Of a stretch of DNA of 33,275 bases, positions 14,394-31,600 are shown in pieces (positions within the stretch are counted from its first letter, which is position 1; each line of letters opens with the position of its first letter). The notes under the pieces were generated by a model. The model ran no database searches. It saw nothing but the letters and a program-made list of their open reading frames with translations, and was not told the DNA's origin. A program made the position numbers and the translations under genes. Source of the stretch: Kiritimatiellales bacterium (GTDB taxonomy: Bacteria > Verrucomicrobiota > Kiritimatiellia > Kiritimatiellales > Pontiellaceae); the NCBI GenBank assembly GCA_003246265.1, contig QKAU01000068.1:1-33275 (forward strand), given 5' to 3'.

Positions 14394-15311
14394 CTATTCC
14401 AGCGGGGCGGCCCAGACGTTGCGGTACATGACGGGATTGCCGTGGTTCTGGAAGTAGACCGGCCCCGATGCCAGTTGCTTGTTCATGGCTCCGTTTCCGG
14501 TTCCCGATGCCAGTTCGACATTGTCGTGGATCGGTACGCCGTTGTGGCGGACGGTGATGCGGGCATTCTGGCATTTGTGCTCGCCCACGAAGACCGGGGC
14601 GGTGAATTCGATGTCGTAGGTCTGCCAGCACAGCGGAGGGAAGGCCATGTGCACGTCGGGCGTCTTCGTCTTGTAGAGCGCGCCGCACCACTGGGTGTTG
14701 CGCGATTCGGTCTCGATGGCGTTGTTGGTTTCGCATAGGTCGAGGCCGAAGGAGTCGATGACCTGGATCTCGTAGTTGTTGAAGATGTAGATGCCGCTGT
14801 TCCCGCGATCCTGGCTGGAGAGGTTCCGGCCGGGCTTGAAGGGGATCAGGAACTCCAGGTGCATGCGGAAGGAGCCGAGGTCCTTCTTCGTCCTGCCGCC
14901 GGCCATCAGGAGACCCTCCTTGACATTGGTAAAGTCGTCGGGGAAAACAAGGATGGCGTTGGCGGGCGGCGCCAAGCCGAGCGAGGGGGAGGCGCGTCCG
15001 ATCTTCCTGTAGCCTTCCAGGATGGCGCCCAGTTCGCCAGCCGTCTTCACGGACGACCGGACAGGGGTTTTGTCCCAGCCTTCGCCCGGCAGTCCACCGG
15101 CGTAGATGGCGACAAGGAAGCAGCCGTCCGGAAGCAGGTTGGCCTGAAGCGCCGTAGTTCCATCCAGGGAGAGGTAGTCTCCGACCAGGGGGAAACCCGG
15201 GTGCGCTTCCGCTGCTTCTTCATCCGTCATGTAGGACGGTGCCGGAACCAGTTCGGCCGCCAGGCAACAGCTCGCCACGCAGGCGAGGAGTGGAAGGGCG
15301 AATGGATTCAT
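14394..15311 (-). CDS. Exported DUF1080 (PF06439, 3-keto-disaccharide hydrolase) protein
   Basis: 305 aa. A hydrophobic N-terminus (1 to about 19, ending CCLAAE) acts as a signal peptide; VASC could be a lipobox but the n-region has no basic residue, so lipidation is uncertain. Residues about 20-130 are an N-terminal extension. The jelly-roll DUF1080 domain covers about 135-305, with FRMHLEFLIPF, RGNSGIYIFNNYEIQVIDSFG, WCGALYK, WQTYDIEFTAPVF, RITVRHNGVPIHDNVEL and a closing GPVYFQNHGNPVMYRNVW. PF06439 members hydrolyse 3-keto-disaccharides and related glycosides. The ATG overlaps the stop of the upstream DUF1080 gene (ATGA), so the two form an operon divergent from two exported oxidoreductases. 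The exact substrate cannot be read from sequence. Confidence 0.88.
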   Translation of the reverse strand: MNPFALPLLACVASCCLAAELVPAPSYMTDEEAAEAHPGFPLVGDYLSLDGTTALQANLLPDGCFLVAIYAGGLPGEGWDKTPVRSSVKTAGELGAILEGYRKIGRASPSLGLAPPANAILVFPDDFTNVKEGLLMAGGRTKKDLGSFRMHLEFLIPFKPGRNLSSQDRGNSGIYIFNNYEIQVIDSFGLDLCETNNAIETESRNTQWCGALYKTKTPDVHMAFPPLCWQTYDIEFTAPVFVGEHKCQNARITVRHNGVPIHDNVELASGTGNGAMNKQLASGPVYFQNHGNPVMYRNVWAAPLE

Positions 15312-16060
15312 TGGAGCTGCTTGACCTTGATGTTGCGGAACAGGATGGTGCCTTCGCTGCCCTGATGGACCTGCAGGGAGAAGAAGCCCCCGAGGTATTC
15401 GCCGTTCCTCCAGCGGGCGGCGGGTACGCCGTTGACCCAGGTCTTGACGGTGTCGCCCACGGCCTCGATCGTGATGCGGTTCCAATCGTCCTTCCTGAGC
15501 GCCGCGCGCACCTCGGCGTGCGCGTCGAGCCACAGCGGATAATACCAGCCGCCGCAGCTCTGTCCGTAGATGCCGCCCGACCAGCCGCGACCCGCGAACG
15601 AAGCACCGAAGCCTTCCATCTCCGCCTGGGGCCCGTAGACGACGACCCCTTTATCCACATTCTTCTGCCGGGCACGGAACATGACGCCGCTGTTGCCATC
15701 GACCTCCCACCTGAGCTCCGCCGTGAAGATGAAGTTGGTGTAGTCGGATTTCACGGTCGAGAGGTAGGTGCTGGGGGAGCCCTTGACGCAGGTGCCGACG
15801 ATCGACTCGCCCTTCGCCTCGAATTTGCAGCGGCCCTCCAGAGGGGTCCAGCCTTCAAGATCCTTTCCGTTGTACAGGGCCGTGAAGCCCTCGGACAGGT
15901 CCGGTTCGGGATCGGTATTCACGAGCATCTCTTCGGCCTTGGGCACGACGGGCTGGCTCTTGTATCTCTCGACGTATTTCAGCTGGCTATCCGAGATCCG
16001 GTTGGCTTGCGCGAAGGCGAGTACCGGGAGCAGCATGGCGGCGATCACCTGGATTTTCAT
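15308..16060 (-). CDS. Exported DUF1080 (PF06439, 3-keto-disaccharide hydrolase) protein
   Basis: 250 aa. Signal peptide about 1-18 (MKIQVIAAMLLPVLAFAQA). After a linker, the DUF1080 domain covers about 58-250: GFTALYNGKDLEGWTPLEG at its start, then FIFTAELRWEVDGNSGVMFRAR, GPQAEMEG, SGGIYGQ, DDWNRITIEAVGDTVKTWVNGVPAARW and the closing GGFFSLQVHQGSEGTILFRNIKVKQL. This is the compact classic form of the family, unlike the extended downstream paralogue. AAGGAG lies 9 nt before the ATG at 16060; the frame upstream of it is a shadow. It is first gene of the minus-strand operon, sharing a 169-bp intergenic region with the plus-strand Gfo/Idh/MocA operon. It probably acts in the periplasm on keto-glycosides. 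Confidence 0.92.
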   Translation of the reverse strand: MKIQVIAAMLLPVLAFAQANRISDSQLKYVERYKSQPVVPKAEEMLVNTDPEPDLSEGFTALYNGKDLEGWTPLEGRCKFEAKGESIVGTCVKGSPSTYLSTVKSDYTNFIFTAELRWEVDGNSGVMFRARQKNVDKGVVVYGPQAEMEGFGASFAGRGWSGGIYGQSCGGWYYPLWLDAHAEVRAALRKDDWNRITIEAVGDTVKTWVNGVPAARWRNGEYLGGFFSLQVHQGSEGTILFRNIKVKQLQ

Positions 16061-16139: not shown

Positions 16140-16145
16140 TTAAGG

Positions 16146-16157
16146 TTGCGTACGCAA
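16146..16157. promoter_or_regulatory. 12-bp perfect palindrome TTGCGTACGCAA
   Basis: An exact palindrome in the divergent intergenic region, 6 nt from the 21-bp inverted repeat. Its left half coincides with the candidate -35 of the plus-strand operon. It could be a second operator, for example for a GntR- or LacI-type protein. Confidence 0.45.
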
Positions 16158-16174
16158 GTTCCAAAACGTAAAAC
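16146..16174 (+). promoter_or_regulatory. Candidate promoter of the Tat-exported oxidoreductase operon
   Basis: TTGCGT (16146-16151), a 17-bp spacer and TAAAAC (16169-16174). The start codon at 16230 is 55 nt downstream, with AAAGGAG as ribosome-binding site. The -35 lies within the 12-bp palindrome. Confidence 0.4.
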
Positions 16175-16229
16175 CTTCGTTCAACCCTCGGATAGATGCG
16201 GCGCTGCGGCCGCAAAGGAGCGACGACGG

Positions 16230-17627
16230 ATGAAGCTTTCGAGAAGGAAAACGCTTTTCGCCACCGGCGCGGCGGCCGGCTGGGCGATGATTCCCGGCAG
16301 GGTGCTGGGCGCATCCGGCCGGATCAACCTGGCGGCCATCGGCCTCGGCCAACAGGGCGGCGGCATCACGGGGGCCTTCGCGGGCAACCCCGCCGTCAAT
16401 CTCGTGGCGATCTGCGATGTCGACATCGACAGCTCGGGCCCGGTCGCCCACTGGAACAAGGGCGGGCTGGGCTGGATGTCGGAGCAGGACACGCCCGCCG
16501 CGAACGCGGCCAAGTATCCGCACGCCCGCAGGTTCCGCGACTTCCGCGCGATGTTCGACAAGATGGGCAACGAGATCGATGCCGTATGCATCGGCGTACC
16601 CGACCACTCGCATTTCCCGATCGCCATGGCGGCGATGATGCTCGGCAAGCACGTCTTTGTCGAGAAGCCGCTGGCCCGGACGTTCCAGGAGTGCGAGCTG
16701 CTGATGCAGGCGGAGAAGCAGTTTGGCGTGGTGACCCAGATGGGCAACCAGGGCCATTCGGGCGCGAACTATTTCCAGTTCCAGGCATGGACGGAGGCCG
16801 GGATCATCCGGGATGTGACCCACGTCGACGCCTACATGAACAACTATCGGCGCTGGCATCCATGGGGCGATGTCGCCGGATTCCCGGAAGCGATGCCGCT
16901 GCCGGAAGGGCTCGATTGGATGGTCTGGAACGGAACGACGCCGAAGCCGGTCGACTTCAGCAACAAGCTGCACTACGGCAACTGGCGCGGCTGGCACCAG
17001 TTCGGAACGGGCTGCTTCGGCGACTGGGGGGCGCATATCCTCGATACGATCCACGAGTTTCTGGAACTGGGCCTGCCCGAACGCGTATCCGCCACCCATC
17101 TCAAAGGACGGAACGACTACATCTTCCCCGTCGAGTCCACCATCAACTTCGCCTTTCCGGCGCGCGACGGCATGCCGGCCATGGATATCGACTGGTACGA
17201 TGGACAGGCCAACAAGGCCCCGGCCCCGAAGGAGCTGGAAGGGCGCGGGCTGGGGGGGTCGGGCAAGGTGATCTACAGCAAGGAGCTGGTCTTCCAGGGC
17301 GGCACCCACAGCGATCCGCTGCAGATCGTCCCCTACGACCGGTTCAAGGAGATGCTCAGGGAGGGCAAGGTTACCAAGGACTACGGCAAGCACTCCAACC
17401 ACTACCAGAACTTCGTCAATGCCTGCCTGGGTGAAGAAAAGACCCGCTCGCCCTTCTCCGTGGCCGGCCCGCTCTGCCAGATGTTTGCGCTCGGCTGCAT
17501 CGCCCAGCGCCTCGGCGGGATGCTCGAGTTCGACCGCGCGACGAAGCGGATTGTAAACAACAAGCAGGCCGACAGCCTGCTGAAGGATGATGTCCGCAAG
17601 GGCTGGGAGCAATACTACAAGATCTAG
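16230..17627 (+). CDS. Tat-exported Gfo/Idh/MocA family oxidoreductase
   Basis: 465 aa. A twin-arginine signal (MKLSRRKTLFATGAAAG…PGRVLGA, about 1-28) predicts export folded with its NAD(P) cofactor to the periplasm. The Rossmann fold follows (INLAAIGLGQQGGGITGAF, about 32-50), with ICDVD at the end of strand 2 and the EKP motif at 145-147 (catalytic Lys146). The C-terminal domain contains MGNQGHSG, WHPWGD and GCFGDWGAHILDTIHEFLELG. The start at 16230 follows AAAGGAG. It is 12 nt from a similar second gene and divergent from two DUF1080 genes. A role in oxidising a sugar hydroxyl to a keto group before DUF1080-type cleavage is an inference from this pairing; the substrate is unknown. Confidence 0.92.
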   Translation: MKLSRRKTLFATGAAAGWAMIPGRVLGASGRINLAAIGLGQQGGGITGAFAGNPAVNLVAICDVDIDSSGPVAHWNKGGLGWMSEQDTPAANAAKYPHARRFRDFRAMFDKMGNEIDAVCIGVPDHSHFPIAMAAMMLGKHVFVEKPLARTFQECELLMQAEKQFGVVTQMGNQGHSGANYFQFQAWTEAGIIRDVTHVDAYMNNYRRWHPWGDVAGFPEAMPLPEGLDWMVWNGTTPKPVDFSNKLHYGNWRGWHQFGTGCFGDWGAHILDTIHEFLELGLPERVSATHLKGRNDYIFPVESTINFAFPARDGMPAMDIDWYDGQANKAPAPKELEGRGLGGSGKVIYSKELVFQGGTHSDPLQIVPYDRFKEMLREGKVTKDYGKHSNHYQNFVNACLGEEKTRSPFSVAGPLCQMFALGCIAQRLGGMLEFDRATKRIVNNKQADSLLKDDVRKGWEQYYKI

Positions 17628-17639
17628 GGAGCCATCGCC

Positions 17640-18983
17640 GTGAACCTGTCCAGAAGAAATGCCTTGTTTGCCGGCGGGGCCGCGGCCTCGGCCGCCCTGG
17701 TGCCCGGCCGCGTGCTGGGGGCCAACGAGAAGGTCGACGTCGCTTGGATCGGCATCGGCGGGCGCGGTCCGCGCATCATCCAGAATTTCGAGAATTCCGG
17801 CATTCTCAACGTAGTGGCGCTCTGCGATGTGCATGTGGACAACAAGTACATGCAGGAGATGCAGGCGAAATATCCCGGCGCCAAGGTCTACCAGGACTGG
17901 CGCAGGCTCTTCGACGAAATGTCCAACCGGTTCGATGCCGTCATCAACCTGACGCCGGATCACCAGCATTTTCCGATCAGCATGGTATCGATGGCGCACG
18001 GCAAGCCGGTCTACACCGAGAAGCCGCTGGCGCGGACCTTCCAGGAGATCGACCTGATGATGGCCGCCGAGAAGAAGTACGGCGTCGCGACGCAGATGGG
18101 CAACCAGGGGCACTCGGGCGACAACTACTTCCAGTTCCAGGCGTGGAAGGAGGCGGGCATCATCAGCGGGGTCACGCACGTCGACGCCTACATGAACAAG
18201 GGCCGCCGCTGGCACCCGTGGGGCGATGTGCAGGGCTACCCGACCGGGGCCGTGAAACCGGCGGGGCTGGACTGGGACATCTGGCGGGGCGTAACGCCGG
18301 CCGACACGGTCTACGACCCGAAGTTCCACCCCGGCAACTGGCGCGGCTGGTACCAGTACGGCACGGGCTGCTTCGGCGACTGGGGGGCGCACGTCCTCGA
18401 CACCATCCACCAGTTCCTCGAACTGGGCCTTCCCGCGAAGATCACGGCCAAGAAGCTGGAGCAGCCGAACACATTCATCTTTCCGCTCTCTTCGACGATC
18501 AACTTCGCTTTCCCGGCGCGCAACGGACTGCCGGCCATGGACATCGACTGGTACGACGGCCAAGGCAATCTGCCGCCGATCCCGGCCGAGTTCGGCGACC
18601 GGAACCCGCAGGATGTGGGCAAGTTCATCTACGCCAAGGACTACGTGTTCCAGGGCGAGAGCCATGGGGCGCCGCTGCAGATCGTGCCGTACGAAAAATA
18701 CCGGGAATTGTTGAAAGCCGGCAGTGTTCCGCGCGATTTCGGCAAGAACTCCGACCACTACAAGAACTTCCTGCTGGCCTGCAAGGGCGAGGAAAAGACC
18801 CGCTCGCCGTTCTCGGTCTCGGGCCCGCTGTCGCAGATGCTCTGCCTGGGCTGCCTGGCGCAACGGTTGGGCGGCGAACTGCATTTCGATCGCGAAAAGC
18901 GCAGGATCACCAACAATCCACTGGCCGACAGCCTGCTCAAAGACGATGTCCGCAAGGGCTGGGAGCAATACTACAAGCTGTGA
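17640..18983 (+). CDS. Tat-exported Gfo/Idh/MocA family oxidoreductase (tandem paralogue)
   Basis: 447 aa with a GTG start at 17640 preceded by AGGGAG. Twin-arginine signal (MNLSRRNALFAGGAAASAALVPGRVLGAN), Rossmann motif VAWIGIGGRGPRI (34-46), LCDVHVD, and EKP at 127-129. Long blocks are shared with the upstream gene: MGNQGHSGxNYFQFQAW, THVDAYMN, RRWHPWGD, NWRGWxQxGTGCFGDWGAH, PAMDIDWYDGQ and the ending SLLKDDVRKGWEQYYK. It is clearly a tandem duplicate of it, diverged in the first 100 residues and in the 290-310 region, which suggests a different substrate or a heteromeric partner. It is probably cotranscribed with the first copy. Confidence 0.92.
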   Translation: MNLSRRNALFAGGAAASAALVPGRVLGANEKVDVAWIGIGGRGPRIIQNFENSGILNVVALCDVHVDNKYMQEMQAKYPGAKVYQDWRRLFDEMSNRFDAVINLTPDHQHFPISMVSMAHGKPVYTEKPLARTFQEIDLMMAAEKKYGVATQMGNQGHSGDNYFQFQAWKEAGIISGVTHVDAYMNKGRRWHPWGDVQGYPTGAVKPAGLDWDIWRGVTPADTVYDPKFHPGNWRGWYQYGTGCFGDWGAHVLDTIHQFLELGLPAKITAKKLEQPNTFIFPLSSTINFAFPARNGLPAMDIDWYDGQGNLPPIPAEFGDRNPQDVGKFIYAKDYVFQGESHGAPLQIVPYEKYRELLKAGSVPRDFGKNSDHYKNFLLACKGEEKTRSPFSVSGPLSQMLCLGCLAQRLGGELHFDREKRRITNNPLADSLLKDDVRKGWEQYYKL

Positions 18984-19016
18984 ACGCATGCGGGGCGCTT
19001 CTGACCTATTGTCTAG

Positions 19017-19045
19017 TTGACGACCCGGGGTGTCGCGTGTGTAGT
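19017..19045 (+). promoter_or_regulatory. Candidate promoter of the 950-aa beta-helix gene, possibly leaderless
   Basis: TTGACG (19017-19022), a 17-bp spacer and TGTAGT (19040-19045). The expected transcript start (about 19052) lies next to the ATG at 19054, which has no ribosome-binding site. Confidence 0.45.
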
Positions 19046-19053
19046 GCGGCACC

Positions 19054-21906
19054 ATGAATAGGAATGGATCTTTCTGGGCGGCCGTCTCCCTGGCCTGCGT
19101 GCTGATCGCTCCCGGCAGCCGTGCGGCAACCTACTACCTCGATGCCGATGGCGGCAGCGACGGCAATGCCGGCACCTCCCCGGGGGCGGCGTGGGCAACC
19201 CTTTCGAAGGCCAGTTCGCGCACCTTCCTGCCGGGCGACCGCATACTCCTCCAGTGCGGCGACACCTTTGCCGGGAAACTGGAACTGCAGAACGACAGCG
19301 GCACGGCGCCGAATCCCGTGGTCGTGGCCTCCTACGGATTCGGAGCCCGGCCCGTCATCGATGCGGCAGGATATCTGGCCGGCGTGCACATCTCGAACAC
19401 CGACTACATCACGGTGCGCGACCTGGAAATCACCGCCGACGGCGGGGCGCCCGTCGACGGTTCCGACCCGTCGAAGCGCTACGGGGTATACGCCAGCACG
19501 TCGAGCGGGGATACCGTCAACGGCATCACGCTGAGCAACCTCTACATCCACGCGATCTATCCGCACACGGCCACGGCGAACGAAGGGGTGAACCCGACGA
19601 CCTACATGGGCACCGCCGTCGAGGTGAAGGGGCAGTCGTCGATCCCTTCCTCGCTACTCGTCGTTCAGAAATGCCAGTTCGAGGATTTGGGATTTCGCGT
19701 GCTGAGCATGACCTGGATGAATTGGGCGAAGATCATCGACAACACCATGACCAACATCGGCGGTCCGGCCATGGTGCCGAACCAATGCGACGATCTGTTG
19801 GTGCAGGGCAATGTCGTGCACGCCTCCGGCGCGTATACCGATCCGCGGATGCACGGCCGGGGCAGCGGCATCTGGCCCATCCGCTGTGACCGGGTGCTGA
19901 TCGAGCACAACGCCTTCATGCACGCCCGCGGCCGCTACGACTCCTGCGGGGCGCACATCGATATCGGCTGCAACGACGTGGTGATCCAGTACAACCTGAG
20001 CATGGACAACGAGGGCGGCTTCGTCGAAATCCTCGGGGAAAACAACAACTGCGCCTACCGCTACAACATCAGCGTCAACGACGGGGCCCGCCGGGCGGGC
20101 ACGCAGGAGAACGGGCTCCCGATCGGCGACGGCCATGTCTTTTTGTTCAGCGGCCACAACGGGACCACCAACCGCGCCGGCCCCTACAACAGCTACGTCT
20201 ACAACAACACCATCTACGTGAAGCAAGACCAGCCTTGCTCCTTCTCGATCGAGGCCTACGCCGACGGGATCCTGGTGGCCAACAACCTCTTCTTCATCGA
20301 CGGGCCCGCCGAAGACGGCACGCCGTCGTGGTGGGGCGCCTATCCTCCCGGCATCGAAGATACCGTCGTCTGGACCAACAACCTCTACCAGCGCGGGGGC
20401 ATCTTCCCGGACTGGATCTTCCACGAGGGCCATCCCATCTACGGCAATCCGAACCTGCCCAATCCAGGGGGGCTTTCGCCCGAAGACTACATTCCTCCGC
20501 CGGGCGCATTCGTGCAAGGGCGCGGCATTGCCATCCCGAAGATCCCGGGCGATCCGCTCGGCCTAGCCATCGGCCTTGCCGCGACCAACGACTTTTTCGG
20601 CAACCCCATCCAGGGCCTGCCGGACATCGGCGCGGTCGAAGTCGGCGGCGGCGTTTCAACCAATATCGGTGTCGCGTTCATGGGGCTCCCGGTATTGTCG
20701 GCCAAGGGCGATGCGGTCTATCTGTCGGCGGTGGCCGGCCCGGCCGGAGCGGAGTACGATTTCCGGGAAACCACCGGCAACCACGGCGGTACCGATTCCG
20801 GCTGGCAGTCCGGCACGAACCATGTCGATGCCGGCTTGCTGCCCAACACCCCCTATGCCTACGAGCTGCTGTTGCGCCAAGGGTCGCTCGTGAGCGCCAA
20901 TACCAGCGTGCTTTATCGCGTGGCCACACCGGTCCGGTCGCCCTTTATCGAACATGTGCTGCTCGACGAGGATTTTTCCACCGCGCCCAACCCGGTGAAT
21001 GTCGTTTCGCCGTTTCCCTTGAACACGTGGTACCTCGACGACGCGCAGATATGGAGCCGGGAAAGCCAGGATGCCGCCGTGTCGACCCAGTCGGGCGCCC
21101 TGCGCCTCGGCTGGGGATACGACGAGGTGCTGGTCCAGTTCTATCGGGACGTCGCCATCCAGACCGGCGGCGAATACCGCTTCTCCGGCGATTGGCTGAT
21201 CCCGACCGTGTTCGAAAACCATGTCGGGTTTCTGGCCGGGGTGGGGGAATACGATTCGACAACCGGGCTCCTGCTCAAGCGCATCAAGCAGATCACCGTG
21301 GGCGAGCTGGGCGCACCGTTTGTTGGCCAGACCGGATCGTTCGAACTGGTGGTTTCGTCGGCGGAACTACAGGCCGCCGGGGTTGCCGCCACGAACCGGA
21401 TCGGCATCTTCCTGCATCGCGACGACGATGGCATCTTGTACTCCGAGAGCTCGGCGAAAAACGACATCTACCATGTCGACAACCTCTTGCTGCTCTACTT
21501 CGGCGACAACATCGATACCGATGGCGATGGCATTCCCGATACCACCGAGACCATGGAGGGACTCGATCCGGACGATCCGTCCGACGGCCTGCAGGACGCC
21601 GATGCCGACGGCATCCCCAACACGGAAGAGTACCTTTTGGGAACGGGCATGAGCGATTCCAACGGGCTCTACCAGACCAGCCTTTCGGTCTCGCCGACCG
21701 AGGCCGCGTTCTCCATCCCCGACCCCTATGTCTTGTCCAACCGGGTCTATATCCTGGAGCACAAGCCATCCCTCTTGGCGCCGGATTCGTGGCGCGCCGT
21801 CGATGGCGCGAGCGGCACTGCGGCGGCCGGAAGCGGTGCCGGCCTGCTCCTGCATCCGACCACGGAAGACCAGTCGTTCTACCGCCTCCGGGTGGAATGG
21901 GAGTGA
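19054..21906 (+). CDS. Large secreted right-handed beta-helix protein with calcium-type C-terminal loops
   Basis: 950 aa. Signal peptide about 1-25 (…LIAPGSRAATYY). Residues 26 to about 500 form a right-handed parallel beta-helix, opening with the TYYLDADGGSDGNAGTSPGAAWATL motif common to secreted polysaccharide-acting beta-helix proteins and containing many N-N and YN-rich rungs (LVVQKCQF, VLIEHNAF, VVIQYNLS, YVYNNTIYV). About 535-625 resembles a fibronectin-III-like linker and about 630-800 a beta-sandwich possibly binding carbohydrate. DTDGDGIPD (from 821) and DADADGIPN (about 848) are calcium-type loops, followed by a C-terminal module ending FYRLRVEWE. It is probably a secreted or surface glycan lyase/hydrolase; no catalytic site is identified. 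It follows the oxidoreductase pair on the same strand but has its own promoter-like signal. Confidence 0.85.
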   Translation: MNRNGSFWAAVSLACVLIAPGSRAATYYLDADGGSDGNAGTSPGAAWATLSKASSRTFLPGDRILLQCGDTFAGKLELQNDSGTAPNPVVVASYGFGARPVIDAAGYLAGVHISNTDYITVRDLEITADGGAPVDGSDPSKRYGVYASTSSGDTVNGITLSNLYIHAIYPHTATANEGVNPTTYMGTAVEVKGQSSIPSSLLVVQKCQFEDLGFRVLSMTWMNWAKIIDNTMTNIGGPAMVPNQCDDLLVQGNVVHASGAYTDPRMHGRGSGIWPIRCDRVLIEHNAFMHARGRYDSCGAHIDIGCNDVVIQYNLSMDNEGGFVEILGENNNCAYRYNISVNDGARRAGTQENGLPIGDGHVFLFSGHNGTTNRAGPYNSYVYNNTIYVKQDQPCSFSIEAYADGILVANNLFFIDGPAEDGTPSWWGAYPPGIEDTVVWTNNLYQRGGIFPDWIFHEGHPIYGNPNLPNPGGLSPEDYIPPPGAFVQGRGIAIPKIPGDPLGLAIGLAATNDFFGNPIQGLPDIGAVEVGGGVSTNIGVAFMGLPVLSAKGDAVYLSAVAGPAGAEYDFRETTGNHGGTDSGWQSGTNHVDAGLLPNTPYAYELLLRQGSLVSANTSVLYRVATPVRSPFIEHVLLDEDFSTAPNPVNVVSPFPLNTWYLDDAQIWSRESQDAAVSTQSGALRLGWGYDEVLVQFYRDVAIQTGGEYRFSGDWLIPTVFENHVGFLAGVGEYDSTTGLLLKRIKQITVGELGAPFVGQTGSFELVVSSAELQAAGVAATNRIGIFLHRDDDGILYSESSAKNDIYHVDNLLLLYFGDNIDTDGDGIPDTTETMEGLDPDDPSDGLQDADADGIPNTEEYLLGTGMSDSNGLYQTSLSVSPTEAAFSIPDPYVLSNRVYILEHKPSLLAPDSWRAVDGASGTAAAGSGAGLLLHPTTEDQSFYRLRVEWE

Positions 21907-21916
21907 TCCGCGGCGT

Positions 21917-21931
21917 GGCGGGATTCCCGCC
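21917..21931. terminator. Small hairpin between convergent genes
   Basis: GGCGGG/CCCGCC with a 3-nt loop in the 24-bp gap between two convergent genes, touching the minus-strand stop codon. No T-run on either side, so terminator activity is uncertain. Confidence 0.3.
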
Positions 21932-23013
21932 TACTGCGTTCCATCCGCCATCGCCTGCGCCTTCATGGAGAGCTCGGCGGCCTTGAAGGCGTGCTCCTGG
22001 GTCATGGCGTGCTCGGTCCGGTTGAGGCAGTCGAGGATCAGCTTGCCGAAGAAGGGGAAGCCCACCTTTCCGTGGCACGCGATTTCGCGCTGCCCCGATC
22101 CATCGACGAGGAAGATGCGGCTATCGGGCGCCTGGCGGCAGACATCCATGTATTTGCGCACCTCAAGTGTTCCGTCGGTGCCCACGACGAAGGTCCGGCC
22201 GTCGCCCCAGACCGGCGAACCCTCCGGCGTGAACCAGTCCATGCGGCAGTAGAAGGAGGCCCCGTTGTCGGCCGCCAGCGACGCCTCGCCGAAATCTTCG
22301 AGTCCCGGCGTGTCGGGATGGTTGAAGTTGGCGACGCGGGCGAAGTTGACCTCCGCATCCCGCGCGCCGGTATAGGCGAGGAACTGCTCGAACTGGTGCG
22401 AGCCGATATCCGTGATGATCCCGCCATACTTTTCCTTATTGAAGAACCAGTCGGGGCGGGCTCCCTTGCCGAGGCGGTGGGGGGCGAGGTTGACCACCTG
22501 GAGGACGCGGCCGACGGCCCCGTCGGCAATCAGTTTTCCGGCCTTCATGCCGGCCTCGTTGTGCAGCCGCTCGGAGTAGTAGACCATGTACTTTCGTCCG
22601 GTCTCCGCCACCCGTGTGCGGGCCACTTCCAACTGGTCGAGCGTGGTGAAGGGCGACTTGTCGGTGAAATAGTCCTTGCCCGCATCCATCGCCCGGAAGC
22701 CGATCCCGGCGCGCTCGCACGGCACGGCCGCCGAGGCGACCAGCCTCACCTCGGGATCGTCGAGGATCTGCTCGTACGAGGCAGCCGCCTGCACTCCGGG
22801 ATGTTTTCCAGCAAACGCCGCGACCTTCTGGGGATCGGGATCGAACACCCACTTGAGCGTGGCCCCGGCATCCTTCAGTCCGTTGGCCTGGCCGTGGATG
22901 TGGCCGTGGTCGAGGAACGCCGCCGCAAAGACGAATTCACCGGGGCGAACCACCTTTTCCGCTTCCGCCGTCGGAGCGTACTCGGCACCGTTTGAAATCT
23001 GAAGGTCCGCCAT
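21931..23013 (-). CDS. Cytosolic Gfo/Idh/MocA family oxidoreductase, divergent subfamily
   Basis: 360 aa, no signal peptide. The nucleotide-binding segment reads FAAAFLDHGHIHGQANGLKDAGATLKWVFDPD (about 29-60), in which the usual GxGxxG is replaced by a LDHGHIHG sequence. The EKP motif is altered to TDKS (118-120), keeping the catalytic Lys119. GGIITDIGSHQFEQFL corresponds to the GGG…D…H active-site block. The C-terminus has GKLILDCLNRTEHAMTQEHAFKAAELSMKAQ, typical of the family. The ATG overlaps the stop of the transporter gene by 1 nt (TAATG), so it is translationally coupled. It is the last gene of the ROK-linked operon. The substrate is unknown; a sugar or keto-sugar is inferred. Confidence 0.88.
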   Translation of the reverse strand: MADLQISNGAEYAPTAEAEKVVRPGEFVFAAAFLDHGHIHGQANGLKDAGATLKWVFDPDPQKVAAFAGKHPGVQAAASYEQILDDPEVRLVASAAVPCERAGIGFRAMDAGKDYFTDKSPFTTLDQLEVARTRVAETGRKYMVYYSERLHNEAGMKAGKLIADGAVGRVLQVVNLAPHRLGKGARPDWFFNKEKYGGIITDIGSHQFEQFLAYTGARDAEVNFARVANFNHPDTPGLEDFGEASLAADNGASFYCRMDWFTPEGSPVWGDGRTFVVGTDGTLEVRKYMDVCRQAPDSRIFLVDGSGQREIACHGKVGFPFFGKLILDCLNRTEHAMTQEHAFKAAELSMKAQAMADGTQ

Positions 23014-24452
23014 TATTTCGCTTCCCCGGTTGTGGCCATCTTCCTGATCTTGTCGACGACGCCGCCCTTGATCTTGATGCCCGCGCCGACGAGCGAGAGG
23101 ACCACCGCCACCAGCAGCACCGCGTTCACGGCGATACGCTTCCATCCCTTGCCGACGGCGTCGCCGAGGTAGCTGCGCTTGTTGTTGAGGATGAAGAAGC
23201 TGACGTAGGCGATCGGCAGCATCGTGAAGGCCAGCGCGGAAGCGATCACCGGCAGCCAGATCGGACTTTGGATCATGACGCCAAGGAGGCCGACGGCCGG
23301 AACGAGGGTGAACATGCGGTAGCGCTTCGGCGTATATTCGAGGCCGAACATCTCGCAGACGGTGAAACCGCAGCAGACCATGTGCGCGCTGATCGCCCCG
23401 CAGGCCATGCCGGCGAAGCCGAGGTCGAAGACGATCCGGCCCAGCGAACCGCCCAGCACGGTGGCCAGGCTCTGCGCGGCGTCGATGGGCTTGAAGTTCG
23501 CGGTGGTCACCCCTTCGGCAAGGTTGCCGTGGACGGTGGACGCCATGCCGACGATGATCAGCGAGGTGAGGAGGACATAGGGAACGAAGAGCGACATGGC
23601 GAGGTCGAAGCGCGCCAACCCCTTATGGTGCCGGCCCCAGCCCTTGGCGAGGATGGAGTAGGGGTAGAGGAAGGTCATGTTGATTCCCACCGCCGCGCCG
23701 ATGGCCCCGAGGATCGTGGTGAGCGAGCCCTTTTCCGAAGGGACCGAAAAGGCGAAGAAGCCCTTCAGGACCCCGCCCCAGTCGACCTTGAGCCGCGCGG
23801 CCTGGACCACGACCACCACAAGAAACGAGGCCATGACCAGGCGGATCATCCAGCGCAGGAAGCCTTCGTAGAGCTTGATGCCCTTCGGTTTCCCACCATA
23901 GCTCCAGGTCAGGGCGATGTTGATCCCCAGGATGAGGAATCCGCCGGCGAAGCGGACTAGGGTTTCGATGGCCTTGGAGTCGCCGCTGTTTTCGATGCCG
24001 GCCACGTTGGCCATGTCCCAGAACGCGCCGCCGAGCAGGGCGTATTGCCCGAAGTGCCAGATCACGGTCGAGACCACGGTGGCCAGCGCCCAGAAGAAGG
24101 CGATGGAGGGGTGCAGTTCGCGCCTGACCACTTCGTAGCCGCGTTCGCCCTTTGTCAGCGTGATGTTGGCCAGTGCCGCCATCATGAAGACGCCGAGCAG
24201 CATGGCGATGGGTTGCACCCACAGGAGCTGGTAGCCGAAGAACGCGCCCGCCACGACCGAGGCCGCCGCGCTTCCCGCGCCGAGCGTCATCGCGCTCTGC
24301 ATCCAGGCCGGGCCGGTGAGTTTGAAGTAGCCCTTGATCCGCTGGACGAACGGCTGGCGCTCCAGGGACTGGAGCAGGGCTTCCTCGGCCCGGATCTTTT
24401 CGGGGTCCCATTTGCTGGTCATCGGCAGGCCGCTGCTTTTTTCTTCGCTCAT
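23013..24452 (-). CDS. NRAMP-like membrane transporter lacking the metal-binding motifs
   Basis: 479 aa, about 11 transmembrane segments between residues 45 and 470. The overall pattern matches the NRAMP/SLC11 (LeuT) fold: a GPAW entry to TM1 (47-50) and a GINMTFLYPYSIL segment at 256-268 where TM6 is expected. In true NRAMP metal transporters TM1 carries DPGN and TM6 carries MPH; here the TM1 core reads TLGAGSAAAS and TM6 reads INMTFLYP, so the Asp, Asn and Met metal ligands are missing. The start at 24452 follows AAGGAA. It lies between two Gfo/Idh/MocA genes, 10 nt after one and overlapping the other by 1 nt. This suggests a sugar-derived or other organic substrate; the assignment rests on fold similarity seen by eye. 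Confidence 0.8.
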   Translation of the reverse strand: MSEEKSSGLPMTSKWDPEKIRAEEALLQSLERQPFVQRIKGYFKLTGPAWMQSAMTLGAGSAAASVVAGAFFGYQLLWVQPIAMLLGVFMMAALANITLTKGERGYEVVRRELHPSIAFFWALATVVSTVIWHFGQYALLGGAFWDMANVAGIENSGDSKAIETLVRFAGGFLILGINIALTWSYGGKPKGIKLYEGFLRWMIRLVMASFLVVVVVQAARLKVDWGGVLKGFFAFSVPSEKGSLTTILGAIGAAVGINMTFLYPYSILAKGWGRHHKGLARFDLAMSLFVPYVLLTSLIIVGMASTVHGNLAEGVTTANFKPIDAAQSLATVLGGSLGRIVFDLGFAGMACGAISAHMVCCGFTVCEMFGLEYTPKRYRMFTLVPAVGLLGVMIQSPIWLPVIASALAFTMLPIAYVSFFILNNKRSYLGDAVGKGWKRIAVNAVLLVAVVLSLVGAGIKIKGGVVDKIRKMATTGEAK

Positions 24453-24462
24453 CGGTTTTTCC

Positions 24463-25608
24463 TTATCGGTATGATTTCGACATGTCGACCCTGGCGGCGG
24501 TGGCCAGGAGTTGGCGGGGCTTCGATTGCGCGATCCGGTCAAGCAGGGCCGCTTCATAGGCGAGGCCATCGAGCGGCAGCGGCACCGGTTCCCCGGTCCA
24601 GCCGGAATAGATCATGGCTCCGGCCAGCTCCAGCGAGCGCAGCCCCTCTTCCGCCGGGGCGATCAGCGCCTCTTCGCCGCGGGCCGCCTTGATGAAATTG
24701 TCAAGGATGGCGGCATGCTGGTTGACCGGTTCCTTCGGAGTGTAGACCTCTTCGCTGGTGTCCGGGGCGCCGAACATCTCGTCGGTAGAGCGGCTGAAGG
24801 CCGGGGCCGGTTCGCTGTTGCGGACCAGCCGGACCGAGGCGCCGTCCGTGGTCACGGTACCGAGATCGCCAACGATCTCCAGCCGGTTGGTGCCGGGCGA
24901 CTCGCCTGTGCTGGCCACGAATTGCCCGGTTGCACCGTTGGGGAACTCGAAGAAGGCGCTGGCCTCGTCCTCGACTTCGATGTCGTGGTGTTTGCCGAAA
25001 CCGCACCAGGCCCGGATGGAACTGGGCAGGCCGACCAGCCACTGCAGGATATCGAGGTTGTGCGGGCACTGGTTCATCAGGACGCCGCCGCCTTCGCCCT
25101 TCCAGGTGGCGCGCCACGGGCTCGATTGGTAGTAGATCTCGGGGCGGAACCAGTTGGTCATGGTCCACGATACGCGCCGCAGGGCGCCGATCTCCCCCGA
25201 GTCGATCCACTGCTTGATCCGGGCATAGCAGGGATGGGTGCGCTGGTTCATCATGAGGGCGAAGAGCTGGTCGTCGCGCTTGCGTGCAGCCAGCAGGCGC
25301 TCTCCTTCCGCCTTGTGGCAGGCGAGCGGTTTCTCCATGACCAGATGCAACCCCGCCTCGAGCACCTGCGTGCCCACCGGGGTGTGCAGGAAGGTGGGAA
25401 GGGCGACGATGGCCGCGTCGGCCAGTCCGGCCGCGACGAGGTCCTCCGCACTCCCGAAGCAGGCGACCCCGCGTGCCCGGAAGTCGTCGAACCGCTCGGG
25501 TGTGTTGTTCGCGACGGCGACCAGCTCGCCGTTCCGTACCGCCCCTTCCAGCAGGTTCCGGGCATGGACCAGCCCGATGTTGCCGAGCCCGATGATACCG
25601 AATTTCAT
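24463..25608 (-). CDS. Cytosolic Gfo/Idh/MocA family oxidoreductase
   Basis: 381 aa, no signal peptide. Canonical Rossmann motif at the very N-terminus (MKFGIIGLGNIGLVHARNLL), EKP at 92-94 (catalytic Lys93), and the GGGVLMNQCPHNLDILQWLVG active-site block with the conserved His and Asp. The length and order fit NAD(P)-dependent sugar or inositol dehydrogenases. The start at 25608 has GAGGGG just upstream; a TTG 12 nt earlier is less likely. It is first gene of an operon with the NRAMP-like transporter and a second oxidoreductase. The 70-bp gap before it holds a TTGACA hexamer and a 21-bp inverted repeat, consistent with regulation by the adjacent ROK protein. Confidence 0.92.
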   Translation of the reverse strand: MKFGIIGLGNIGLVHARNLLEGAVRNGELVAVANNTPERFDDFRARGVACFGSAEDLVAAGLADAAIVALPTFLHTPVGTQVLEAGLHLVMEKPLACHKAEGERLLAARKRDDQLFALMMNQRTHPCYARIKQWIDSGEIGALRRVSWTMTNWFRPEIYYQSSPWRATWKGEGGGVLMNQCPHNLDILQWLVGLPSSIRAWCGFGKHHDIEVEDEASAFFEFPNGATGQFVASTGESPGTNRLEIVGDLGTVTTDGASVRLVRNSEPAPAFSRSTDEMFGAPDTSEEVYTPKEPVNQHAAILDNFIKAARGEEALIAPAEEGLRSLELAGAMIYSGWTGEPVPLPLDGLAYEAALLDRIAQSKPRQLLATAARVDMSKSYR

Positions 25609-25678: not shown

Positions 25679-26863
25679 TTATTTTGCGGCGCGGACGAGA
25701 GGGATGGGATCGTTGATGACCCGGTCGAGCACCATGCAGGCGGCGCCGAATACGGCGTCGTCGTCGCGCCCCGACACCTTGATCTTGACGTTTTCGCGGG
25801 GCTGGGCAAGGGCCCGCTGGTCGACCACGGCCCTGGCCTTGTCCAGCAGGAAGGGGAGGATCGGTCGCATGGCACCGCCCAGGACGACGGTGTCCAGGTT
25901 GAAGAGGTTGACCAGGTTGACGATGCCGAGGCCCAGCATTGCGGCCATGCCGTCGGCGGCATCCACTACGGCGGAATCACCCGCACGCAGGGCCTGGGCG
26001 GCCTCTTCGGGCGAGATGGAGGCAAGGCCGCTTTTCCGGGCCAGCGCGGCCATGCCGACCTCCGTCACCCAGCAGCCCCGGTCCCCGCACGAGCAGGGCT
26101 CGCCGTCGGGGCGGATCTTCATGTGGCCCGCCTGTCCGGCATAGCCGCCCGTGCCGCGGAAGAGGTGGCCGTCGAGGACCAGGCCGGCCGCCATGCCGAC
26201 CCCGATGCTGAGGTAGGCCAGGTTGAGGGCCTTGGAGCGGTCGGCATAGGTATAGTAGCCCATGGCCGAGGTGTTGGCCTCGTTGTCGAGGTGGACCGGC
26301 AGGCCGAATTTCTCCTCCCACAGGGCCTTGAAGGGGATGTTGCGCCATTTCAGCGAGGGGGCGTAGGTGAGGGTGCTCGCCCCGGCATCGACGAGTCCGG
26401 CCAGCCCCAGCCCGATCCCCAGCGCGGGGAGGCCTTCGGCCCGGCCCCAGGCAAGGCCCGCATCGACCAGTTGTTCGGCGGTCCGCGACGTTGCCTCGAA
26501 GCTGCTGGAGGCGCCGACCTTCGCCGACTCCTCCCAGAGTACCTGGCCGCGGAAATCGACCGCGACCACGATGATGCGGCTGATGTCGATCTCCGCGCCG
26601 ATGGCGAACCCGCCGCGCGGGGAGAGCTCGAGCAGGAGTCCCGGCCTGCCCGCGCCGGAGCGGCGGAATTCCGTCTCGACCACCAGGCCGGCGTCGAGCA
26701 GGTCGCTGACGATGTTCGAGGCGGTATTGCGCGTCATTCCCAGCTCCTTGGCCAGGTCGGCGCGCGCCAGGGTGCCGCGCTCGCGCAGCAGCTTCAGGAT
26801 GGCCGACATGTTGAAGCGCCGTACCGACGCCTGGTCCGCCTTGGATGAACCGGTCTTTTTCAT
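25679..26863 (-). CDS. ROK family transcriptional regulator
   Basis: 394 aa. An N-terminal winged helix-turn-helix (about 19-65: MSAILKLLRERGTLARADLAKELGMTRNTASNIVSDLLDAGLV) is joined to a ROK sugar-binding/kinase-like domain (about 84-390). The zinc-site signature is GH at 246-247 with C257, C259 and C264 (CSCGDRGC). The position of the catalytic Asp of ROK kinases (N-D-x-N) reads N194-E195-A-N, so it is probably a sugar-responsive repressor and not a kinase. The start at 26863 overlaps the stop of the amidotransferase gene (ATGA); the frame upstream is a shadow. By position and by the nearby inverted repeat it likely controls the downstream oxidoreductase/transporter operon and, through a matching site, the DUF1080 and Tat-oxidoreductase operons. 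Confidence 0.92.
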   Translation of the reverse strand: MKKTGSSKADQASVRRFNMSAILKLLRERGTLARADLAKELGMTRNTASNIVSDLLDAGLVVETEFRRSGAGRPGLLLELSPRGGFAIGAEIDISRIIVVAVDFRGQVLWEESAKVGASSSFEATSRTAEQLVDAGLAWGRAEGLPALGIGLGLAGLVDAGASTLTYAPSLKWRNIPFKALWEEKFGLPVHLDNEANTSAMGYYTYADRSKALNLAYLSIGVGMAAGLVLDGHLFRGTGGYAGQAGHMKIRPDGEPCSCGDRGCWVTEVGMAALARKSGLASISPEEAAQALRAGDSAVVDAADGMAAMLGLGIVNLVNLFNLDTVVLGGAMRPILPFLLDKARAVVDQRALAQPRENVKIKVSGRDDDAVFGAACMVLDRVINDPIPLVRAAK

Positions 26864-27543
26864 GCAGGGATGCAGAATAGCGAATCGAGCAGGGTTTCCA
26901 AGACCTGGTTGGCCTGGTCCATGTTGGCGGTACCGGCCCGCATGAGCCCGGCGGGCTGGATGAAGGGGGCGTCGACGAGCTCGTGCGAGCAGTGCGCGAT
27001 CAGCGCCTCCATGCTTCCGGGCGTCGTTTCCAGGTGGAACTGGAGCCCGACGACGCAGTCGTTGTGGACGAACCCCTGGTTGATGCCAGCTGAGCTGGTC
27101 GCCAGCTTGACGGCGTCCGCGGGGATGTCGAAGGTGTCGCCGTGCCAATGGAAGGCAACCATGGTCTCGGGGATTAGATTCGGGGCCTTGGGATCGCGCC
27201 GGATCGGAAACCAGCCAATCTCCTTGTGCGGGCCGGGATAGACCTTCGCCCCGAGCACGTCGGCGATCAGCTGGGCGCCGAGGCAGATACCCAGCATCGC
27301 CTTTCCCTCTTCGATGGTATTGTGGATGAAGGCCTTCTCCTCCCGGAGCCACGGATGGTCGCCGTGGTCATGGATGCCCATGGGTCCGCCCATCACCACC
27401 AGGCCGTCGAAGCTGCCGGAGGCGGGAAGGCGTTCACCTGCGAAAAGCCGCGTGCAGGAGAGCTCGCAGCCCCGGGCCTCGGCCCATGACGCGATATGCC
27501 CCAGCCCCTCGAACGGAACATGCTGTAGCCAGTGCAGTTTCAT
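26860..27543 (-). CDS. Class I glutamine amidotransferase (GMP synthase-like domain)
   Basis: 227 aa standalone GATase domain. FDGLVVMGGPMGIHDH (45-60), the nucleophile elbow LGICLGAQ with Cys87, and the catalytic pair H170/E172 in LQFHLE. The segment MVAFHWHGDTFDIP is typical of the GuaA-like type I GATase group (YfeJ/GAT1-like), enzymes that hydrolyse glutamine or related gamma-glutamyl compounds. The start at 27543 (MKLHWLQHVPFEGLG) matches family N-termini; the ribosome-binding site is weak. The last 4 nt overlap the ROK start (ATGA), so the two are cotranslated. The physiological substrate is unknown and its link to the sugar genes unclear. Confidence 0.88.
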   Translation of the reverse strand: MKLHWLQHVPFEGLGHIASWAEARGCELSCTRLFAGERLPASGSFDGLVVMGGPMGIHDHGDHPWLREEKAFIHNTIEEGKAMLGICLGAQLIADVLGAKVYPGPHKEIGWFPIRRDPKAPNLIPETMVAFHWHGDTFDIPADAVKLATSSAGINQGFVHNDCVVGLQFHLETTPGSMEALIAHCSHELVDAPFIQPAGLMRAGTANMDQANQVLETLLDSLFCIPA

Positions 27544-27624
27544 GGGTGCCATCCGTACCACAAATGCCATGGGAAACACAAAATGGGAGAAGCGGCTTTT
27601 TCGTGGCTGCCGGCCAGACCGTGG

Positions 27625-30600
27625 CTATAGCTTCCTCCGCAGCAGGATGGTGCGCATGTCGGGGTGGGCGAGCCTGCGCCCGGCCTCGACGATGTCGGCA
27701 AACCGGTCGGCCGGAATGAGGGCGGGCTTGAGGTCGGCCATCTGGACGATGCGCACGGCGTTGGCCCGCTCCGAATAGTCGACCGCCACCTCGACGAGCC
27801 CGGCCCCCTCGGGGGCCTGCCAGGAGAAGTTTCGCGGCAGGATGAGCGGTTCGTAGCCGTCGGGCAGGACGATGTTGTACTCGACGAGGGAGTCCACGTA
27901 GCCGTTCCACGAGAGCGGCAGGGTCCGTTCGCTGGAGCGGTACTGCAGCAGGCCGCCCAGTCCGCCGGGCACGGTGAAGTAGAGGTAGTCGCCGTCGAGC
28001 ACGGCGTAGCGGTCGGCCGCGACGGAATACTCCATCGTGCCGGGATAGGTCGCATAGTCGGTCGTCAATTCCGAGACGGCCCTGGCCGATTGCGACACGG
28101 CGGTGACGAGTTCAAGGTAGTGGCGGCGCCGGTTTTCCGGCGTCATCTCGGCGTAGGCCTGGTGGAACCCTTCGAAGGCGGCGCCTTGCAGGGTGGTCGT
28201 CTGGGTCAGGCCCGCCTGGCCGTCGGGACCGATGCTGATCTCGCAGGCCGCATGGCCGCGATCGGCCTTGACGGACGGAACGCGGAGGGTGCCGAGCTTC
28301 CCGCTTTCGAGGTCGAGCATGGCGCGATGGTCGTAGGCCGAGGTGCCGAGTTCCGCGTATTGGGACTCCTCGTCGAGATAGACCGTTTCGCCGTCGACCT
28401 CGAACCGCATCAGGACGGTGCCGAAGGTGGTCCGCATGGGGACGGATAGCAGGGGTTTGGCGGCTTCGGGCACCAGGGGGACGGAGCCCGACAGGATGAA
28501 TTCCGGTTTCAGCCCGGCGGCATGGAGCAGGGCATGTAGAAGGACCATGCGGTCGGGGTTGTTCCCGTAGCGGTCGGCCAGGGTCCGGTCGGCAGGCGTG
28601 ATGGCGGAGAGCGGCAGGGCGTTGAGTCCCGGTCCGGCGGGCCGGATGTTCTGCGCCACCCAGTCGCGCAGGGCGACGGCCTTGTCGCGGTCGCTTGCGA
28701 GGCCGTCGGTCAGCTGCCGCGCGAGGGCTTCGGCACTGGGCTGGTTGTCGGCGGCCTCCTGCAGGCGGCCACGGATTTGGCGGGCATGGCTCTTCCAGTC
28801 GGAGGTGGAGATGAAGAGCGCGGGATTGAAGGTCCACCAGGCGGGCAGGGCCTCCTCCTGCCGGACCGCCGGCTGGTTGGTGGCGGACCAGGCATAGGTC
28901 GCCGTCCCTTCGCTCGCGGTGCGCGTTTCCGCAATGCCGGTATTGAGCACCTGCACCTCCATCGATCGGGGCGCGGAGAGCGTGACCGTCTTGCCATCGA
29001 TCGGTTCATGGCCGTTGAAGGCCTGGTAGATGGAGAAAAAGGGTTTGCCGAAGACGGTCGAGACGATCTCGTAGTCGAGGATGCTGCCGATCTCGACGCC
29101 GGGGAGGTTGGCCACCAGGATCTTCTCGGCGGGGTAGCGCGGGGCGGAGGCGACCCAGCCCGCGTCCATCAGGTTGATCTCTTCGGGGGCGATCGTCTTG
29201 ACGGTGCCGTCCGGCAGGGTGACCGTCGCGCGGGCCAGCTCGATGCGTTGCCATGCCGGATTGTAGGCCAGCTTGATTTCGGAGTTCGACTTCTTCCCGG
29301 CGTAGGTGAGGATCTTCACGCGACTGCGCGTGGTTTCGGTCCAATGGGAGGCATCCTCCAGCGCGTAGTGGATCTCCTGGTCCAGGATGCGCACGTCCGC
29401 GCCGTCGTTCTCCGTATCGGGAGCGGCTTCGAAAACCAGCCGCTTGCGCAGGTTGTATTCGATGTCCTTCAGGTTCTGCTTCAGGACGAGGTACTCCTCG
29501 GGGCTGAACTCGACGGCGCTGATCAGCACGGTGTTGGTGGTTGCCAGGGTGCCGCCGGACTGCGCGAGGTCGACATGCCAGTCCAGCTGGCCGGAGTCGA
29601 TGGCATCGTAGCGCGGCAGGATGGGGCTACCGATCGTGTCGGGCAGGTCGAGCGCGAGGGTTTCGCGGATGCCGGCGGTCATGCGGGTGAAGAGGGGGTA
29701 CTTGCGCTCTTCCAGTCCGGTCTGGCCGATGAGGAAGTTGGCGTAGCCGAGGGAACTGCCCAGCCGCGGCAGGGTCAGCATCCGGGTGGCTTCGCCCTCG
29801 ACCAGCAGGTTCTCCGCGGTGTAGGCCAGCTTCACGACGAGCGGCTCGGTGGTGTCGCGCAACTCCTCGGGGAGGATCGACAGCGAGCGCAGCTCGGCGG
29901 TGGGCATGCCCTTCTTCAGGTGCCCCTCGAAGAAGCGCCTGCGCTCCTCGGGCTTGATCTTCGAAAAGTAGCCGCGGTAGACGGTGTCGTTGATCCCCTC
30001 GAAGCGGAGCGTGCTCTGGGCGTCGAGCTTTCCCGTGGCGTCGAGCGAGGCGGTCGAGTCGATCTGCAGCAGGTTCTCCCCGGCCGGGATGATGGGCGAG
30101 GTGCGCAGGGTGTCGCCCCCGGGGCGGGCGACGATATAGCTCATGTTTTGGAGGTAGGAGGGGAAGATGTCCTTGGTGTTCTCGTCGGTGGAGTCCATCA
30201 GGATGTACTCCCCGCCGTCGCCAAGCGCGGCGGTGACGGCGTGGTTGAAGAAGGCCTGCGGCACCTCTTCGTCCTTCTTCGGTCCGGCCATGATGATGAC
30301 CGGGAAGGCCTCGACATCGACCAGCCGCAGCATGGCGGCGAGCAGGGCCGCCTTGTCGCGGCAGACGCCGTAGCGGTTGTCGAAGGTGGTGCGGACGTCG
30401 TGCGGCTCGTAGCCGGGCGCCTCCTCTTCGGTGGTGATGCCCATGTAGCGGATCTCTTGCGACACGAAGTTGAAGATGGCGCGGATCTTTTCGGCCGTGT
30501 TGGTGCAGCCCTCGACCAGTTCCCGCGCCTTGGCCTCCATCTCCGGGGTCGTGGCTTCGAGCCGCGGCTTGCACAGCTCCCAGTACCACGTCGACAAGTC

Positions 30601-31383: not shown

Positions 31384-31600
31384 GCGGTACTCCGGGGTTC
31401 GTTCACGAATCGGGCAAACGGTACCTGCGCGGGCCTTCGCCCGCAAACCCTTTGTGCGACAGCCCGTGTGGCCGACTGTTGAATGCACCTTGCAACTTTC
31501 TCCGCCGCGCGAGGAGGATGGTTCGACCCACTTCTCCTGCGGCTTTTGCGCCATGCGGCGATCGCATGGCTGCGACACGGAGCGGGAGGCGCGGGCCCGG
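31384..31600. other. Intergenic region with two stable hairpins
   Basis: The 217-bp gap upstream of the DUF3857 gene. A GC-rich hairpin, GCGGGC/GCCCGC with a 4-nt loop (31429-31444), lies in the probable leader of that gene. A second hairpin is at 31550-31570. I see no convincing promoter hexamers and no gene. Confidence 0.5.
31550..31570. terminator. Hairpin after the SHD1-protein gene
   Basis: GCCATGCG (31550-31557) pairs perfectly with CGCATGGC (31563-31570) around a 5-nt loop, about 30 nt beyond the minus-strand stop codon at 31601. No T-run follows (GCAAAAGCC), so termination by this element alone is doubtful. Confidence 0.4.

Follow-up and report, generated by a model that had tools for sequence, protein, structure and literature searches.

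The gene for transporter T (23013..24452, minus strand) lies in a 33,275-nucleotide stretch of a Kiritimatiellales genome, contig QKAU01000068.1, referred to here as the window. Its open reading frame, with coordinates verified, runs from an ATG at 24452 to a stop codon ending at 23013 and encodes 479 amino acids with 11 predicted transmembrane (TM) helices. On either side, on the same strand, are genes for two cytoplasmic oxidoreductases of the Gfo/Idh/MocA type, GfoB (24463..25608) and GfoA (21931..23013), and the gene order is ROK-GfoB-T-GfoA. The stop codon of GfoB is separated by 10 nt from the ATG of T, which is preceded by AAGGA, and the stop codon of T overlaps the ATG of GfoA (TAATG). 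This is the arrangement given in the preliminary description of this DNA, where T was placed between two such genes, coupled to one and 10 nt from the other. Both oxidoreductases were assigned with Pfam, and no export signal was found in either. The nearest solved relative of GfoB in a phmmer search of the PDB is the glucuronide-3-dehydrogenase P2B11 (8tdi, E 2e-66); for GfoA, assigned also from its junction with T, the PDB match is 2p2s, a putative oxidoreductase (E 1.6e-104). The same strand carries, 70 bp ahead of GfoB, the gene for a ROK-family transcriptional regulator with a winged HTH (25679..26863, minus strand; Pfam ROK 158 bits), and a ROK gene is also present upstream of GfoB in several relatives. 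In the window it overlaps (ATGA) the gene for a class-I glutamine amidotransferase (26860..27579, minus strand), which was identified by Pfam, by synteny in relatives and by this junction. The amidotransferase gene belongs to the conserved context upstream and is preceded by a large transglutaminase-domain gene.

A second group of genes, absent from the preliminary description, is located downstream of GfoA and faces the Gfo pair. It came to light when a gene from the neighbourhood of a relative was used as query against the genome and the matches led back into the window. Two plus-strand genes encode putative Tat-exported glycoside 3-dehydrogenases that resemble BT_2158, G3DHa (16230..17627, Tat motif LSRRKTL) and G3DHb (17640..18983, Tat motif LSRRNAL). 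These score 251 and 274 bits with the NCBIfam model for BT_2158 (NF058561), under its equivalog cut-off of 750. Two minus-strand genes encode 3-keto-disaccharide hydrolases of family PF06439, each with an N-terminal signal peptide (15308..16060, 111.5 bits; 14394..15311, 90.2 bits). BT2158 has been reported as a periplasmic glycoside 3-dehydrogenase required for disaccharide use (PMC11300592), and PF06439 proteins have been described as 3-keto-glycoside hydrolases (PMC9007349). The presence of both kinds of gene beside the T operon recalls the BT2157/BT2158-type 3-keto-glycoside pathway of Bacteroides, for which the literature found mentions no NRAMP-type transporter. An open reading frame of 971 amino acids on the minus strand (16140-19055) was rejected as a gene, since it is antisense to the two dehydrogenase genes.

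By sequence, T is a genuine member of Pfam family PF01566 (Nramp). The match (95.2 bits, E 5.6e-27, cut-off 29.8) is full-length, spanning residues 63-432 of T and positions 2-353 of the 357 in the profile. Solved NRAMPs are matched by phmmer (E 3.6e-6), and the NCBIfam models for metal Nramps match T only below their cut-offs. An AlphaFold2 model built from 45 relatives (pLDDT 87.5, pTM 0.88) has as its best Foldseek match the outward-open DraNramp of Deinococcus (6d91, E 9.6e-13, TMt 0.80), and ranks 1-26 are NRAMP-type throughout (DraNramp, BfraNramp, EleNRMT, YcsG, DMT1 and others). YcsG (9a52) is listed by Foldseek and not by the sequence search of solved structures. The model and these matches, along with Pfam, support the LeuT-type NRAMP fold that had been claimed for T. 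In the model the central site is marked by two helix breaks, one at 57/58 and the other at 259-261. T has in common with canonical NRAMP/SLC11/MntH proteins (e.g., DraNramp, 6d91, and BfraNramp, 10ky) the Pfam family, a LeuT-type fold in which TM1 and TM6 are broken, the GP motif before TM1 and the 11 helices. It is the sole PF01566 protein of the genome, and a separate gene, FeoB, provides for iron uptake.

The central site of T differs from that of canonical NRAMPs. The motifs are TLGAGSAAAS in TM1 and GINMTFLYPY in TM6, and a profile-profile alignment with canonical Nramps (probability 98.6%, E 5.7e-16) sets GAGS at the place of D-P-G-N and GIN at that of M-P-H. HMMER and MAFFT give the same register, so that the motifs quoted in the preliminary description do fall where it put them, and no metal-ligand residue occurs at the equivalent TM1 and TM6 positions. 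The codons concerned are at 24270..24281 (G58-A59-G60-S61) and 23679..23687 (G256-I257-N258), both on the minus strand. Canonical Nramps from the same phylum carry D-P-G-N and M-P-H without exception. Besides T itself, the family comprises 80 relatives at 46-87% identity, which come from the Kiritimatiellota, Verrucomicrobiota, Planctomycetota and Acidobacteriota. In place of D-P-G-N, 80 of these 81 sequences have GAGS and the remaining one GSGS; in place of M-P-H, all 81 have GIN. Residues G58, G60, S61, G256, I257, N258, T260 and L262 are identical in 81/81 sequences, and Q52, S53, T56, W132, H133, Q136, Y137, M259, T260, H357, T364 and E367 are practically constant across the relatives too. 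For TM3 the comparison was made with the acidic residue near the site, E134 in DraNramp and E133 in EleNRMT. An HMM alignment to EleNRMT sets the invariant Q136 at E133, and the TM3 glutamate is probably replaced by this glutamine in T; with canonical Nramps TM3 aligns ambiguously, since a gap opens there in the profile comparison, and the MAFFT result for this helix in distant NRAMP groups, with its unreliable gaps, was not used. Because the replacing residues are constant in the 80 relatives, the alignments describe a conserved, different site and not decay, and T as a decaying metal transporter was ruled out.

In the tree, the family of T joins a sister group in a single branch with strong support, which is distant from canonical Nramps, NRMT-like sequences and the YcsG-like proteins encoded next to pxpA (these last taken from plasmid records). 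Canonical Nramps and T fall on separate branches with support of 100/100. Members of the sister group, 31-45% identical, have GGGS in TM1 and GINMTFLLPY in TM6. Other Nramp-related branches also have glycine for the TM1 aspartate, as GTGS, GGSH or GAGE, and as GPGF in YcsG-like proteins. Genes from other Nramp-related branches occur in a glucuronate operon with GH115, RraA-like, UxaC, UxuA and SDR genes (L176) and in a pectin/acid-sugar cluster with a sugar-acid kinase, PdxA and a pectate lyase (L114).

According to a 2026 preprint by Ray, Berry and Gaudet (PMC12873925), Nramp-related proteins are paraphyletic, outside the canonical Nramps, and include 'G-motif' groups; apart from MntG and NRMT, every group is there called entirely uncharacterised. 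The 'G-motif' groups resemble T in having glycine at the place of the TM1 aspartate and lack the metal and proton-path residues; T matches them in TM1 and TM6, with an uncertain mapping of TM3 and TM9. The alignments and the tree agree with the earlier proposal of a distinct NRAMP-like branch without metal ligands. That T 'has lost' its ligands presupposes an ancestor that had them, which published trees do not support. Since the Nramp-related proteins as set out in the preprint are paraphyletic outside canonical Nramps, a metal site may never have been in the ancestry of T, and the phrase probably has the wrong polarity. The T clade belongs to a known, almost uncharacterised set of Nramp-related proteins and is not wholly new as a kind.

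Sugar genes, not the metal genes of canonical NRAMPs, are the context of T, and the association recurs, a point that the preliminary description had proposed to check. Of 80 loci, 14 have a same-strand Gfo gene within 350 bp of T, far above the roughly 0.7-1.4 that the density of such genes in the genomes predicts. With related loci collapsed, 8 of 58 have a Gfo gene beside T (P 3e-8 to 6e-6 under a rough model). The loci come from MAG-based contigs, and most neighbours were classified through representatives. Outside Kiritimatiellota, a same-strand Gfo gene adjoins T in 8 more loci. In 5 Pirellulales-type loci an exported, sugar-isomerase-like AP_endonuc_2 protein is encoded just upstream of T; a sister-clade locus (L123) has the order T-Gfo-AP_endonuc_2, and one T relative (L041) is fused to a GH28 domain. 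The linkage of T and Gfo genes is not universal, for many Planctomycetota, above all rumen Thermoguttaceae, have housekeeping genes around T. Metal-homeostasis genes, which would have spoken against the earlier interpretation, were not seen beside T homologues among the neighbours scanned.

The closest view of this association comes from the family of the window's own genome (f1), in which the transglutaminase-GATase-GfoB-GfoA locus is orthologous, with GfoA 74-84% and GfoB 64-84% identical. T is found between GfoB and GfoA in 8 genomes, two of which (the window and G174) carry one lineage and six another. Within a lineage T is 87-94% identical, and between the two inserted lineages 55-59%. 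A sister-clade T, about 32% identical, is upstream of GfoB in three further genomes, and in 4 of the 15 T is elsewhere, unlinked to the Gfo pair. GfoA, GfoB and a clade T are together present in 15 of the 29 f1 genomes and together absent from the other 14 (Fisher 1.3e-8, uncorrected for shared ancestry, from which the co-occurrence may in part derive). The strongest evidence of shared function is that several transporter lineages of one clade occur at the same Gfo pair. Ten of the 15 genomes, that of the window among them, have the periplasmic 3-dehydrogenase/3-keto-hydrolase module opposite the Gfo pair and facing it. There are also a related Gfo pair without T (G038), a T without a close 3-dehydrogenase (G186) and two cases of a dehydrogenase without T (G166, G179).

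Because the site residues differ from those of metal transporters and genes for sugar oxidation and cleavage recur as neighbours, T probably imports sugars or keto-sugars and not metal. That the substrate is organic appears likely with good confidence; that it is a keto-sugar in particular is favoured only slightly. In its full form the reading we prefer, with modest confidence, is that T is a LeuT/NRAMP-fold secondary importer, likely of 3-keto-hexoses or small 3-keto-glycosides, within the following pathway. In the periplasm the Tat-exported BT_2158-like dehydrogenases would oxidise glycosides at the C3 hydroxyl, and the exported 3-keto-disaccharide hydrolases would release 3-keto-sugars. 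T would bring the product through the inner membrane and would bind it where TM1 and TM6 are broken; there the metal ligands are replaced by small polar residues (GAGS, GIN-M-T). In the cytoplasm GfoB and GfoA may reduce or otherwise interconvert the imported product, and the ROK protein would regulate the genes. We infer the substrate, the direction of transport, the coupling ion, the Gfo reactions and the role of the ROK protein; the sequences themselves show the family and fold, the replaced ligands and their conservation, the coupling of the genes, and their recurrent linkage and co-occurrence. The suggestion of a keto-sugar substrate, made in the preliminary description before the periplasmic genes were noticed, is strongly supported by them. 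No literature that links NRAMP-type proteins with Gfo/Idh/MocA proteins or keto-sugars was found. To our knowledge no importer of 3-keto-sugars acting between periplasmic oxidation and cytoplasmic Gfo/Idh/MocA enzymes has been described.

T could carry another organic solute of sugar catabolism that is a substrate of the Gfo enzymes, for example a uronic or aldonic acid, an inositol-type polyol or an intact glycoside, which we regard as unlikely though worth keeping in view. GfoB and the neighbouring Gfo proteins also match models of inositol 2-dehydrogenase, with scores under the cut-off; the solved enzyme nearest to GfoB acts on a glucuronide; and the glucuronate and pectin/acid-sugar clusters contain Nramp-related genes. 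These two clusters are on other branches, however, and the conserved partner module of T consists specifically of a 3-dehydrogenase and a 3-keto-hydrolase.

Transport of a divalent cation (Mg2+, Mn2+ or another) through an unusual site, serving the metal-dependent enzymes of the pathway, is considered improbable. Fold and Pfam family would allow it, as would the absence of any other PF01566 protein from the genome, and there are two precedents: EleNRMT, whose site is altered, transports Mg2+ (PMC8806188), and YcsG, which among proteins lacking the ligands has been studied best, has been reported to be a Mn2+ importer that raises cell Mn (PMC10448178). EleNRMT (7qia) is like T in its fold, in a non-canonical central site and in the lack of TM6b histidines, but NRMT retains Asp55 in TM1 and Glu133 in TM3, where T has Gly58 and, by HMM alignment, Gln136. 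The NRMT motifs DxxG in TM1 and TxxA/T in TM6 were not found in T, which has GAGS and AAVG there. T is without any side-chain ligand in TM1 or TM6, and probably in TM3 (Q136), and its recurrent partners are sugar oxidoreductases, with no metal genes seen nearby.

Import of 5-oxoproline or an amino acid, after the manner of PxpT and YcsG, is very doubtful. PxpT of C. glutamicum and YcsG (= MntG) of B. subtilis share with T the family (PF01566/TC 2.A.55), the lack of DPGN and MPH and an operon with enzymes for an organic compound. Both are described as necessary for the use of 5-oxoproline, PxpT being required for growth on it (PMC13274462), which gives the superfamily a precedent for an organic substrate; for its homologue YcsG the substrate is disputed between 5-oxoproline and Mn2+. 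The window also contains a fused pxpA-pxpB gene and pxpC (4111-6508), and a PxpT-type gene is not known from this genome. However, these genes are about 17 kb from T, with unrelated genes between, and are not in its operon; no T relative was found beside pxp genes. YcsG-like proteins, with motifs GPGF and GGYI and with PxpABC in place of Gfo/Idh/MocA partners, do not group with T in the tree, where the two are separate 100/100 clades on long branches. That the neighbourhood is coincidental and T serves some general, unconnected function can be dismissed as highly improbable: PVC-type genomes are Gfo-rich (the genomes here average 6.7 Gfo genes per Mb) and many T loci have housekeeping neighbours, but only 9 PF22725 Gfo genes occur in the 3.0 Mb of this genome, two of them flanking T, and three T lineages at one Gfo pair with co-occurrence in 15/15 genomes would be hard to obtain by chance, so that background density and co-occurrence led us to reject it.

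The preferred reading would have consequences for annotation and for the history of the fold. Database records label the relatives of T as 'divalent metal cation transporter' or 'Nramp family divalent metal transporter', so genome annotation would give metal uptake where sugar uptake is likelier. If T carries keto-sugars, it would supply a missing inner-membrane step of glycan breakdown through 3-keto-glycosides, and it would show how the central site of a single fold came to serve metal ions in some proteins and organic molecules in others. The question of whether the NRAMP superfamily started out with metal transport is touched as well. A wider and more tentative view, to which we give somewhat less credence than to its opposite, is that much of the Nramp-related half carries sugars and sugar acids, the T clade 3-keto-sugars, with metal transport derived and the ancestral solute organic. 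Clear genes for a test are at hand, e.g., the locus in Pontiella sulfatireligans (L025). The T clade is a conserved Nramp-related clade with a probable role in the use of keto-sugars.

Genes around the Gfo pair, the two Gfo/Idh/MocA oxidoreductase genes GfoB and GfoA that flank the NRAMP-fold transporter in the window, include two others. One (27625-31578, minus strand) codes for a protein of 1317 aa that carries a transglutaminase-like and a DUF3857 domain; it precedes the GATase gene and, further along, the Gfo pair, a synteny that is kept in relatives. A secreted right-handed beta-helix protein of 950 aa (19054-21906, plus strand) lies between the 3-dehydrogenases and GfoA; no counterpart was found at the equivalent position among the relatives examined. 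The window also contains 5-oxoprolinase genes (4111-6508, plus strand), with PxpA (LamB_YcsF) and PxpB (CT_C_D) fused in a single ORF (4111-5688, plus strand) that is overlapped by the PxpC (CT_A_B) ORF (5261-6508, plus strand). A YcsG-type NRAMP protein accompanies pxp genes in other places; here the sole NRAMP protein is about 17 kb from them.

In the planctomycete UBA4800, the ORF of one member of the transporter's family (L041, 6001-8769, plus strand; 923 aa) runs without a stop into a GH28-like domain, possibly a transporter-glycosidase fusion. Sister-clade transporters at L181, L182 and L218 are 569-587 aa long, with additional segments ahead of TM6 and within the TM7-TM8 loop, and their genes are positioned upstream of GfoB rather than between the Gfo genes. 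A highly divergent Nramp-related branch, with GPAT in TM1 and HITL in TM6, occurs on haloarchaeal plasmids (L112 and L116), where the next gene, with an overlapping start, encodes a small hypothetical protein that is conserved.

Nramp-related proteins are also found in a glucuronate operon and in a pectin/acid-sugar cluster. In the Pontiella sulfatireligans genome (G181), one with a GTGS motif (L176, 4393-5646), distinct from the window's transporter, shares an operon with GH115, RraA-like, UxaC, UxuA and SDR genes and is a candidate glucuronate carrier. Another, annotated as a metal transporter, is encoded on Croceibacterium plasmid NZ_CP156083.1 (L114, 3410-4774), flanked by four-carbon acid sugar kinase and pectate lyase genes and adjoined by PdxA and a DHDPS-family gene; it is a further candidate organic-acid carrier.
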